Virus record (IMG/VR): IMGVR_UViG_3300030109_003137
Location: 1 to 29,046 of that record
DNA length: 29,046 bases
Source of the DNA: a virus
Reading direction: 5' to 3' (one strand)
The position numbers and the translations under genes are program-made. Under the pieces are notes generated by a model. That model was not told the DNA's origin, ran no database searches, and was given only the letters and a program-made list of their open reading frames with translations. Positions within the stretch are counted from its first letter, which is position 1; the number at the start of each line of letters is the position of its first letter. Positions 20,178-28,217 of the stretch are shown here, in pieces.

Positions 20178-20227
20178 GTGTGACAATAGGGTACTACTAT
20201 CTATTTTTTAATAGGCTTATGTCACTA
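20178..20227 (+). repeat. GTGTGACA element, copy A
   Basis: This is a 50-base segment bounded by GTGTGACA and TATGTCACTA, thus with inverted ends (GTGACA/TGTCAC), with TAGGGT near its left end and TAGGC near its right end. Copy B (20656-20707) is the same plan in opposite orientation, and copy C (26809-26854) matches at both ends in this orientation. It may be an operator for a phage regulator. Confidence 0.5.
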
Positions 20228-20374: not shown

Positions 20375-20407
20375 ACAAACTAACTACGACCATTAATGGA
20401 TAATATA
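20375..20407 (+). promoter_or_regulatory. Phage promoter module, copy 1
   Basis: Conserved left part ACAAACTAACTACGA (one difference from the consensus ACAAAYTAAATACGA), eight variable bases, then GGATAATATA. It lies 29 bases before the ATG of the 72-residue gene, which it probably drives. See the finding on the seven-copy family. Confidence 0.8.
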
Positions 20408-20654: not shown

Positions 20655-20655
20655 A

Positions 20656-20707
20656 CAGTGACACTTGCCTACTACTAAACCTAACTATTAACACCCTAAT
20701 GTCACAC
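20656..20707 (-). repeat. GTGTGACA element, copy B (inverted)
   Basis: On the minus strand this reads GTGTGACAT, then TAGGGT, and ends TAGGC, AAG, TGTCACTG, the same plan as copy A. It begins 2 bases after the stop of the 72-residue gene. Confidence 0.5.
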
Positions 20708-20713
20708 TATATT

Positions 20714-21665: not shown

Positions 21666-21698
21666 ACAAACAAAATACGATTACTAATGGATAATATA
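21666..21698 (+). promoter_or_regulatory. Phage promoter module, copy 4
   Basis: ACAAACAAAATACGA (one difference), eight bases, GGATAATATA. It is followed not by a short leader but by a structured 160-base stretch containing a tRNA-like arm. Confidence 0.8.
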
Positions 21699-21708
21699 TA
21701 TGTAATCA

Positions 21709-21756
21709 GAATCAATAAAAACTCTGTATGAAGTACTGATTAGTACAGAGTGATTC
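21709..21756 (+). ncRNA. Long hairpin in the leader behind promoter 4
   Basis: GAATCA (21709-21714) and CTCTGTA (21722-21728) pair with TACAGAG (21744-21750) and TGATTC (21751-21756), a 13-bp helix with a 7-base bulge on the left side. The terminal loop contains a second possible helix GTACT/AGTAC. There is no U-run after it, so it is not a simple terminator. Confidence 0.5.
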
Positions 21757-21805
21757 AAGTCGTAGTTGAGCACGTTTAGCGACTTATAAAAAATGCGAAT
21801 GGCAA

Positions 21806-21847
21806 AGTACGAATGGTTTTCTCGAGGTTCGATTCCTCACGTACTAC
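21806..21847 (+). ncRNA. tRNA-like T-arm and acceptor element
   Basis: GAGG TTCGATT CCTC (21824-21838) is a typical tRNA T-arm, including the box GGTTCGATTCC. It is enclosed by AGTACG (21806-21811) and CGTACT (21840-21845), a 6-bp acceptor-like helix. I could not fold a complete cloverleaf: no convincing anticodon arm is present and no CCA is encoded. It may be a degenerate tRNA, a tRNA mimic, or the tRNA 3' part of an attachment site, though no integrase gene is visible. Confidence 0.4.
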
Positions 21848-22619: not shown

Positions 22620-22643
22620 ATACGAACGCTTTTGGATAATATA
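22611..22643 (+). promoter_or_regulatory. Phage promoter module, copy 5
   Basis: ACAAATTAAATACGA, eight bases, GGATAATATA: a perfect consensus copy, 32 bases before the ATG of the zinc-ribbon gene. Confidence 0.85.
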
Positions 22644-23608: not shown

Positions 23609-23729
23609 AACAATATTTGTATACGAGCCAAATATAATAAAAAACCTAGAGGAATATGACAAAAAAGAGAAAGCTAAACAGCAAAAATCCAAAGTACAGA
23701 ACAACAGAACAAATAAAAGCAACAACTAA
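23583..23729 (+). CDS. Small basic protein
   Basis: This 48-residue frame MKKLKKIIKTIFVYEPNIIK continues with LEEYDKKEKAKQQ and an Asn/Lys-rich end. The first 14 residues form a basic amphipathic helix. It overlaps the next small frame by 74 bases in another reading frame, so at least one of the pair may be spurious; this one is somewhat less likely. Confidence 0.35.
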   Translation: MKKLKKIIKTIFVYEPNIIKNLEEYDKKEKAKQQKSKVQNNRTNKSNN

Positions 23730-23814
23730 AGAAGTTGACAAAAGGGTGCTAATTAACAAGTTGACTAGAAAAGGAGTTGAAGGCGTAGAAGTATACGCTA
23801 CATTTTATAAATAA
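23656..23814 (+). CDS. Small basic protein
   Basis: This 52-residue frame MTKKRKLNSKNPKYRTTEQI continues with KEVDKRVLINKLTRKGVEGV and a final EVYATFYK. Its stop falls at the first bases of the closing helix of the structured RNA. The GAGGAATATG before the start gives a weak Shine-Dalgarno-like GAGG, unusual in this window. No family is recognised. Confidence 0.45.
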   Translation: MTKKRKLNSKNPKYRTTEQIKATTKEVDKRVLINKLTRKGVEGVEVYATFYK

Positions 23815-24034
23815 ACGAGGTGAGGGTGGTAGCGCGTGAGATGTGTAGACAAGCTGTGATCTCTATGAGACATCCAGTAGTCATCTTACTCACTTGGCAG
23901 AACGGCAGGATAAAGCAAAAATAGTGACAACACTGAACAGTAGAGCTGATAAACGGACGGACGATCGCCTGACTTTATCTTGTTTAAATACTCAGACGTA
24001 AACACTATAGAACCACACCTGCCCGACCTCGTTT
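23813..24034 (+). ncRNA. Structured RNA candidate of about 220 nt
   Basis: The only long gap free of frames in the right half is visibly more GC-rich than its surroundings. AAACGAGGT (23813-23821) and ACCTCGTTT (24026-24034) form a perfect 9-bp closing helix. Inside are a 10-bp helix with one G-U pair (23906-23915 with 23973-23982), a hairpin AGTG/CACT with loop ACAA (23923-23934), GTGAG/CTCAC (23836-23840 with 23889-23893) enclosing TCTC/GAGA (23860-23870). The 3' end runs into TTTTATTT, as at an intrinsic terminator. It shows no signature of tmRNA, RNase P RNA, tRNA or a group I intron that I know. Promoter module 6 follows directly. Confidence 0.65.
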
Positions 24035-24039
24035 TATTT

Positions 24040-24072
24040 ACAAATTAAATACGAACACTAACGGATAATATA
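24040..24072 (+). promoter_or_regulatory. Phage promoter module, copy 6
   Basis: ACAAATTAAATACGA, eight bases, GGATAATATA: a perfect consensus copy, directly behind the structured RNA and 19 bases before the next ATG. Confidence 0.85.
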
Positions 24073-24091
24073 ATAAATTAAATTAAATAAT

Positions 24092-24436
24092 ATGTCAGAA
24101 ACAAAAGAAATGTTAGAAGCTACAGTAAAAGGCTTACAAGACAAAATAGGTCAATTAAATATGGACTTAAAATCTAAACAACAAGATTTAGAAGATGCTA
24201 ATAAACCAGTTATATCTAGTAAAATAATGGATGTAGTAAATGATGCAGTAAATTATGCTATAGAAAACTACAACTTTGATAACTCAGACCAATACGAAAT
24301 TGACTTTGGTATTGACTATGATGGTAGAGTACAAGCAGAGACTATTAATTTTAGAGATACGTATGAATTAGTAGAATCAATAGTAACTGGAATAGAAAAA
24401 CAGTTTAAAGTAGTTAAAGAAGAAACCACAGACTAA
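24092..24436 (+). CDS. Coiled-coil hypothetical protein
   Basis: This 114-residue protein has an N-terminal coiled coil (about 3-35, VKGLQDKIGQLNMDLKSKQQ) and a C-terminal alpha/beta part with YEIDFGIDYDGRV and YELVESIVTGIEKQFKVVKE. It is the first gene behind promoter module 6, with a leader of AAATT repeats, and it is joined to the next gene by a TAATATG junction. No family is recognised. Confidence 0.6.
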   Translation: MSETKEMLEATVKGLQDKIGQLNMDLKSKQQDLEDANKPVISSKIMDVVNDAVNYAIENYNFDNSDQYEIDFGIDYDGRVQAETINFRDTYELVESIVTGIEKQFKVVKEETTD

Positions 24437-26854: not shown

Positions 26855-27468
26855 ACGAAAGAAACCTAAAATACCTAAACAATAATAGGATTACTTATAG
26901 GCGTTTACCTATAACTGATAAACCTACAATAGATACCAAAGAATACATGTTTTACGAAAACGGTACACATGAGTGCTATGAGTTATTCCGTTCGTCAGCA
27001 AAAATAACTACATATAAGTCTCTTAAATGGCACTTACTTGTTCTTTGGTATCTTAATCCTCAACTTGATCCTGATGACTTTAATAAGTTAGCAGAGATTA
27101 TATCTCACAAACCAAATGGTTTTGTAAGTTTTGAGTTATCAGATAGAATACTCGATAAAATTATTTATGGAGTTAGCATGGCTGATTTAGAACGTCCACC
27201 TAAAAATAAATTACGTAAAGTAATATTTAAACCTTTTACTGGACTAACTAAAGAACAAAAATTATCCATTGTAGGTTCATTAATAGGTGTAACAAATAAG
27301 ATACATCCAGATGACATATATCAGTGTATGATAGATATACATGACATGAATAAAAAGATAACGATACGTAAACTCTCTGAGTTGCTAACAGTATCACAGC
27401 GAACAGTACATAGACATATGTGTCAAGAACTTAAAAAAGAAAAAGAACTATTAAACCAACAAATATGA
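26848..27468 (+). CDS. HTH-containing regulator or replication initiator candidate
   Basis: This 206-residue protein, MSYERNLKYLNNNRITYRRL, ends with a clear helix-turn-helix (about 171-197, KLSELLTVSQRTVHRHMCQE). The N-terminal part has no recognised motif; the middle, RILDKIIYGVSMADLE, is probably helical. Its final four bases overlap the start of the sigma factor gene (ATGA), so the two are co-translated, which suggests joint work in transcription control. An element of the GTGTGACA type lies on its start codon, compatible with autoregulation. It may alternatively bind an origin. Confidence 0.6.
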   Translation: MSYERNLKYLNNNRITYRRLPITDKPTIDTKEYMFYENGTHECYELFRSSAKITTYKSLKWHLLVLWYLNPQLDPDDFNKLAEIISHKPNGFVSFELSDRILDKIIYGVSMADLERPPKNKLRKVIFKPFTGLTKEQKLSIVGSLIGVTNKIHPDDIYQCMIDIHDMNKKITIRKLSELLTVSQRTVHRHMCQELKKEKELLNQQI

Positions 27469-28217
27469 AAAACTATAATGTAAACAATTATTCTGCTTAC
27501 AAAAATGATATAAAAATTAATGTAAAAAGAATAGGTAACAAAGAGTGGAGAGATCATACTAGAGATGAATTGATTTTAGTATTCTTACCTTTAGTAGAAA
27601 ATTTAGCACGTAAGTTTTCAACTGCTCAACAAGCTTCAGGAGTTATGACAGTTACTGATATGATTCAAGAAGGTAATGTTGGCCTTATAAAAGCTGTTGA
27701 TAAAATAATTTGGGAAACTATTTATGAAGCAGAAAAACCTGAACGTAGACTTAAATCTTTTCTAGCTAAAAGAATTAAAGGTGCAATACGTAGAGGTATT
27801 GATATTAATAGAGGCAGCATGCGTATACCTGAGCATAAGCTAAATGAAATACGTAAAAACTTTGGAGAAAATAAAAAAGAAGTTGAAATGTTTTTTAATT
27901 CTATATTCTGTAGTATTGACTCTCAAGAACACAACGGATTAGTGTATGATATACCAGAAGAAGACGCCGAATATAATAACGCTGTTTTAAATGCTTACTT
28001 ATTAGCATTGTTAAAACAACATTTAACACAAAGAGAAGAAGATGTTATACGTATGAGCTTTGGTCTTGATTGCGAAAAGCATTCAGCTACTGAAATAGCT
28101 AATCATTTAGGAATAAAAGGTAGTAGCTCTTATGTAAGAGTTTCTCAATTAAAAAAGCAAGCAATAGATAAGTTAATAGCTAACGTAGATCACTCGCAAC
28201 TAACTGATTTAATGTAA
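27465..28217 (+). CDS. RNA polymerase sigma factor, sigma-70 family
   Basis: This 250-residue factor redirects host RNA polymerase. Region 2 is at about 35-125 with LPLVENLARKF, DMIQEGNVGLIKAVDK (region 2.2, core binding), RLKSFLAKRIKGAIRRGI (2.3-2.4) and RGSMRIPEHKL (start of region 3). Region 4 is at about 185-238 with LTQREEDVIRMSFGL and an HTH around SATEIANHLGIKGSSSYVRV. Region 1.1 is missing, typical of alternative and phage sigma factors. Compared with housekeeping factors, region 2.3-2.4 has a long insertion (WETIYEAEKPERR) and lacks most aromatic residues for -10 melting, so promoter specificity is probably altered. It is a strong candidate to drive the late, minus-strand module. Confidence 0.9.
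   Translation: MKNYNVNNYSAYKNDIKINVKRIGNKEWRDHTRDELILVFLPLVENLARKFSTAQQASGVMTVTDMIQEGNVGLIKAVDKIIWETIYEAEKPERRLKSFLAKRIKGAIRRGIDINRGSMRIPEHKLNEIRKNFGENKKEVEMFFNSIFCSIDSQEHNGLVYDIPEEDAEYNNAVLNAYLLALLKQHLTQREEDVIRMSFGLDCEKHSATEIANHLGIKGSSSYVRVSQLKKQAIDKLIANVDHSQLTDLM

Follow-up and report, generated by a model that had tools for sequence, protein, structure and literature searches.

A conserved structured RNA with two slots for exchangeable hairpin modules in uncultivated virus genomes

The stretch at positions 23813-24034 of the marine phage genome in IMG/VR virus record IMGVR_UViG_3300030109_003137, whose 29,046 nucleotides are referred to here as the window, is a conserved structured RNA, established by comparison between homologues and not by folding energy. 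This RNA, termed A, has the layout P0 - GGGUGGU - slot 1 - CGGCAGGAUAAAGC - slot 2 - ACCACRCCUGCCC - P0' in all 32 distinct copies, and its overall anatomy, as judged from the aligned copies, is near certain. The comparison shows that the core contains two open slots, each closed by a stem that covaries. The window copy resembles two conserved RNAs fused into one, with a module termed B inside A and a third module in slot 2. The preliminary description, made from the window alone, had proposed a single structured RNA of no recognized class. The structure and the lack of a class are supported, as covariation is evident and nothing reaches the Rfam threshold, whereas the picture of one monolithic RNA gives way to a conserved core in which a second RNA and exchangeable hairpins are nested. 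The features are as follows.

23656..23814, + strand: upstream gene of 52 aa, no known family; its stop codon shares two bases with the start of P0
23813..23821, + strand: 5′ strand of the closing helix P0 (AAACGAGGT), pairs with 24026-24034
23824..23830, + strand: core strand 1, GGGTGGT (proposed P1 GGG plus P2 TGGT), invariant in 32 of 32 homologues
23831..23902, + strand: slot 1, here filled with module B
23836..23893, + strand: module B, GTGAGATGTGT - X hairpin - TCTTACTCAC
23847..23883, + strand: X hairpin, the variable insert of B; outer stem covaries
23903..23916, + strand: core strand 2, CGGCAGGATAAAGC; CAGG at 23906-23909 is one proposed pseudoknot half
23917..24011, + strand: slot 2, with frame module ATAGTGACAACACTG (23921-23935) ... 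CTCAGACGTAAACACTAT (23991-24008) and sub-slot 23936-23990
24012..24024, + strand: core strand 3, ACCACACCTGCCC (proposed P2', CCTG pseudoknot half at 24018-24021, proposed P1' CCC)
24026..24034, + strand: 3′ strand of P0 (ACCTCGTTT), runs into the U-tract at 24032-24035
24050..24075, + strand: phage-type promoter-like repeat (TACGA-N-GGATAATAT), starts the next unit

Several properties read from the window alone hold up. The perfect 9-bp helix between 23813-23821 and 24026-24034 is present exactly as claimed, and just 11 of 2000 dinucleotide shuffles contain a Watson-Crick helix of at least 9 bp with a span of at least 150 and at least 4 GC, so the closing helix alone is improbable by chance. 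The stretch is indeed rich in GC (45.5%, compared with 32.5% over the whole window and 29% and 28% on either side) and free of reading frames, with ORFs of at least 40 aa overlapping it solely by the last 2 bases of the upstream stop codon. The U-rich end is found at 24032-24035, and the position between the 52-aa gene (23656-23814) and the promoter-like repeat (24050) is as described. Folding energy by itself is weak evidence for a structured RNA and not convincing, with a z of -1.60 on the + strand, where 14 of 200 shuffles were equally good, and of -2.75 on the - strand.

Covariation between the copies carries the case. In the closing helix P0, 82 of 84 cells are paired, in 14 distinct helices; with the stem register chosen by best pairing in the swap tests, and for P0 also before swapping, the swap control averaged 54 paired cells and none of 1000 swaps reached 82. 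The pairs in P0 include 5 G-U and no A-C, which favors the + strand as the RNA. The slot-2 stem (86 of 90 cells paired, 18 distinct stems, 0 of 1000 swaps) and the outer stem of the X hairpin (25 distinct inserts, 0 of 1000 swaps) also covary. In the alignment, for which no register was chosen, 92.7% of cells are paired over the whole structure versus 36-45% when it is slid, and P0 varies in both strands at each of the 6 pairs counted. On four of the five measures used, 0 of 500 alignment shuffles equalled the structure; the fifth, the count of pair types, shows no excess over shuffles (96 of 500). These compensatory changes go beyond the controls, as is required of a structured noncoding RNA. 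Covariation had been put forward as a check on the closing helix and also on a 10-bp inner helix, CAGGATAAAG/CTTTATCTTG, and this second helix gains nothing from it. It exists in the window copy with one G-U, the longest equivalent pairing has a median of 4 bp across the 32 copies, and it was rejected as a family feature, being unique to the window copy.

The alignment of the 32 homologues has 34 invariant columns, some of them fixed by the search patterns used to collect the copies; GGGTGGT belongs to one such pattern. Core strand 2 changes solely by a C-to-T in L197 and an A-to-G in L180, and core strand 3 varies only as A or G at its 6th base. P1 (GGG/CCC), P2 (UGGU/ACCA) and CAGG/CCUG hardly vary, so that covariation neither supports nor refutes them, and the sole substitution among them, A to G in L180, still allows a G-U pair. 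P1 and P2 are put forward as proposed helices, supported by conservation. A short pseudoknot between CAGG (23906-23909) and CCTG (24018-24021) is likely, given its conservation and its retention in a divergent allele of the A core seen in two further copies, L232 and L239 (reverse strand, at about 4035 and 924). This allele reads GTGGT ... AAGTCAGGATAAAGC ... ACCACACCTG, with core strand 1 shortened to GTGGT and CAGGATAAAGC of core strand 2 retained, and its slot 1 is occupied by a different conserved insert, CAAGTAGGCGAG...CGGTCAACTTG. A 6-bp GGCAGG/CCTGCC pairing was dropped for the 4-bp version, L232 and L239 keeping only CAGG/CCTG.

The length of the RNA depends on the contents of its slots. 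It is 222 nt in the window and about 60 nt with both slots empty (L155), and in this minimal form (L155, L165) 62 bases are matched by the model. Slot 1 is empty (TTAA) in some homologues and in others holds an AAYGTA...TACAA stem or B. Module B has the conserved strands GTGAGAYGTGT and ATCTTACTCAC, with the paired variants GCGAG/CTCGC and GTAAG/CTTAC, and its pattern matched 32 copies, one of which (L041) looks like a chance match. It also stands alone in about a dozen contigs, in a frame of its own, ACGAGYGTGGC-B-GCCACCTCGTTTT, with its own U-tract. A is absent from all 18 records that had been brought in by B outside A or by an empty site, and this absence, together with the stand-alone form of B, leads to the reading of the window RNA as a fusion. 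The frame module of slot 2 also recurs outside the window: L029 has it with a different sub-insert, and L240 has it within B, where it holds hairpin F.

About ten hairpin modules are shared among the slots, B and a set of tRNA-like RNAs, sometimes across distant phages. Hairpin F (TATGAGGTTCTTAGCCCTCC) occurs in 19 distinct contexts, among them A slot 2, B, the slot-2 frame module, a tRNA-like RNA and sites elsewhere. Hairpin G is found in A slot 2 and B, hairpin I in A slot 1, A slot 2, B and one free element, and hairpin J in A slot 1 and slot 2; the remaining modules occur in B or A, plus a tRNA-like RNA. A flank-helix test of hairpin F, of poor design, showed no difference. As read from the copies, the slots assort independently: L003 and L009 have slot 2 in common and differ in slot 1, and L029 and L031 have slot 1 in common and differ in slot 2. 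Slot 1 is exactly identical in L019 and L180, though the L019 terminase is just 27% identical to that of the window.

The tRNA-like RNA families, with an acceptor, a T-arm and a conserved CTGACGAG, are found at L029:8930-9220 and in L064, L032, L042, L098, L184 and L197. Their middle holds the same exchangeable hairpins, and ARAGORN found no tRNA in those scanned. They are possibly RNase P-type processing signals, by analogy with MALAT1. The window itself contains a second conserved RNA at 21704-21847 (+ strand), behind the promoter-like repeat at 21676. It consists of a hairpin AAGTCG...CGACTT followed by a tRNA-like end (acceptor AGTACG/CGTACT and T-arm GAGGTTCGATTCCTC) with no anticodon arm; it has relatives in L003, L022, L024, L075 and L208 and no Rfam match.

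The downstream gene (24092-24436), used as a lead, gave six relatives. In three of them the equivalent gap contains the A core, and in L002 it contains module B alone, so that four have a comparable RNA there. The other two, L004 and L006, keep the flanking gene and lack the element in the gap; the element is thus dispensable in related phages. Pattern scans of viral contigs extended the set to the 32 distinct A-core copies, all in uncultivated virus contigs of related and unrelated phages. Terminases of core-bearing phages are 87, 83, 67 and only 27% identical to that of the window, and L239, which carries the divergent allele, has the same kind of gene context and a terminase 86% identical. 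The core is also found in loci without any homologue of a window protein (L008, L016, L155). Since the contigs are drawn from many metagenomes, assembly chimeras are unlikely as a general cause of the module exchange. An 18-mer search of 84,980 bacterial species genomes gave six exact matches, all without the rest of the core, and the covariance model, which detected 8 of 8 virus records known to carry the element, had no match among 299 genomes from the family to which Flavobacterium collinsii belongs. Among isolated phages, a DNA search with the window and the minimal homologue gave chance matches only. The nearest named relatives by terminase are the elemo phage and MW202828; no A was found in MW202828 or in the first 50 kb of the elemo phage, and the latter stretch contained a single loose B match that resembles chance. 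Flavobacterium and Cellulophaga are the hosts of the nearest named phages, which makes Bacteroidota the probable hosts here.

Seven promoter-like repeats (ACAAAYTAAATACGA-N-GGATAATATA) lie on the + strand of the window, at 20385, 20867, 21117, 21676, 22621, 24050 and 25107. The unit that starts at 22621 has the RNA at its end, about 16 bases short of the repeat at 24050. The phage encodes a sigma factor (27465-28217), which may read these repeats. The six genes tested between 22676 and 25125 yielded no family assignment, no reverse transcriptase and no integrase. Two further motifs recur in these loci. Motifs of the type GTGACA ... TAATAGGCTTATGTCAC are found at 20178-20226 and 20655-20710 (+ strand) of the window and in about 12 loci, and are perhaps operators; a conserved hairpin, AAACCAAAGGGGACTGTGACAACAGCCCCTAAATA, is found in 13 homologous loci and is perhaps a terminator.

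We give an even chance to the proposal that A represents a new family of small noncoding RNA genes and acts as a folded RNA, probably in trans. As far as the sequences can indicate, a trans-acting noncoding RNA with its core bound to a conserved host component is the most likely reading. Transcription would proceed, in the window, as the 3′ end of an operon from the promoter near 22621, ending at P0 and the U-tract, and in other phages from a promoter belonging to the RNA itself. The CAGG/CCTG pseudoknot would lock the core. More tentatively, a core that is rigid across very different phages, with inserts that are free, would fit an RNA bound to a partner that stays constant from one phage to the next, a host macromolecule being the likeliest candidate. 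The slots would require only a self-folding hairpin and could in this way collect and swap modules, such that a single transcript might combine the functions of A and B. On a broader scale, and with a probability that we place a little short of even, marine flavophage-like viruses share a combinatorial RNA system, in which several socketed cores (A, B, tRNA-like) draw on a common pool of exchangeable hairpins, nested at several levels and swapped between unrelated phages, giving phage-specific composite RNAs and perhaps a fast-evolving host interface. Should the core bind a host factor, RNA would be making a phage-host contact of a new sort. The RNA is directly testable with the covariance model and the roughly 30 natural variants, among them the minimal form of about 60 nt.

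The dispensability of the element counts against a trans-acting noncoding RNA, and its usual place just before a promoter would suit a cis-acting role at the 3′ end. The strongest rival, which we regard as unlikely, is that P0 and the U-tract terminate the operon before the next phage promoter, that the knotted core blocks 3′-5′ exonucleases, and that the slots serve only as neutral padding. Most array-ending copies have a T-rich tail, with TTTT directly after P0 in many, and in about half of the 32 copies a phage promoter-like repeat begins 13-25 nt further on. Several copies that are followed by another element have no T-run (L010, L012, L021, L024, L183), which favors this rival, but internal copies in L026, L029, L032 and L033 do carry TTTT. 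P0 and TTTT may be the counterparts of the GC-rich helix and U-run of an intrinsic terminator, with a loop of about 200 nt between the strands of P0 and with the U-run missing in some copies; a terminator has no need of the invariant core bases. A further argument against this rival comes from two unrelated contigs, L155 and L008, which have TTTG-N20-TATCTTTG immediately upstream of the element. The Flavobacterium promoter consensus is TAnnTTTG at -12 to -5 (PMC9723704). From such a host-type promoter of the flavobacterial sigma-A form, transcription would start within a few bases of P0, and the element in both contigs stands at the transcript 5′ end, has no U-tract and is followed by a gene.

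The exchange of modules could alternatively reflect mobile hairpin DNA, in the form of nested palindromic insertions that a transposase or template switching would spread and whose structure would serve mobility only. Identical modules at many positions and levels, movement between distant phages and the empty sites in L004 and L006 would fit this explanation, which we consider improbable. There is one A per virus record (two in L029) and at most one B in each of 45 records over the length range searched (control pattern 0), the inserts are confined to defined slots, no target duplication is seen by eye at the empty sites, and the core is frozen instead of decaying. Host-type promoters at P0 in two contigs also count against it. 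Mobility may account for the movement of modules but not for the role of A. It is less probable still that A is a self-cleaving ribozyme with peripheral hairpins in tolerant loops; a small invariant core with unpaired conserved bases, a likely pseudoknot and loops that accept long inserts would suit one, but no Rfam ribozyme matches even at an E of 10 and no conserved cleavage-site context was recognized. Least probable of all is a riboswitch or leader controlling the downstream gene, for which the element lies suitably between promoter and gene in L008 and L155, as downstream genes differ among phages and a promoter-like repeat separates the RNA from the next gene in the window and many homologues.

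A is a new RNA family by every library tested. In agreement with the initial failure to assign a class, there were no Rfam matches at the gathering threshold in the window and 7 homologous loci, and matches at an E of up to 10 were at chance level. ARAGORN found no tRNA or tmRNA in the window and ten homologous loci, and no description of such an RNA was found in the part of the literature covered. GOLLD and ROOL are ornate phage-encoded noncoding RNAs of unknown function, often near tRNA genes, and one ROOL is 659 nt and many GOLLD are over 800 nt in size (PMC12286853). A resembles them in being a phage-encoded structured noncoding RNA, but they are several times longer, and their covariance models had no match in the window and 7 homologous loci. 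No nested-module exchange has, to our knowledge, been described for GOLLD or ROOL.

Group I and group II introns and twintrons have a conserved RNA core whose peripheral loops carry inserts, even another complete RNA; A, unlike these, has a core of about 43 nt, is intergenic, and shows no splice-site anatomy and no Rfam match. BOX/REP-type intergenic palindromes and mitochondrial double-hairpin elements are short, modular, partly mobile hairpins between genes, whereas A occurs mostly once per genome, its core is fixed and not palindromic, its inserts sit in defined slots, and it shows compensatory changes. Integron attC sites have variable terminal structure between conserved ends; A has three conserved strands instead of paired ends, is sited by transcription units, and has no integrase among its tested neighbors. 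Retron msr-msd RNA is a similar-sized structured RNA inside a closing helix, but no reverse transcriptase is among the tested genes near A. Proteins evolve by domain shuffling, and we know of no precedent for the nested, exchangeable architecture of A, nor of a description of comparable shuffling and nesting of RNA modules in phages. Against these systems, and with the literature covered in part, this architecture looks new.
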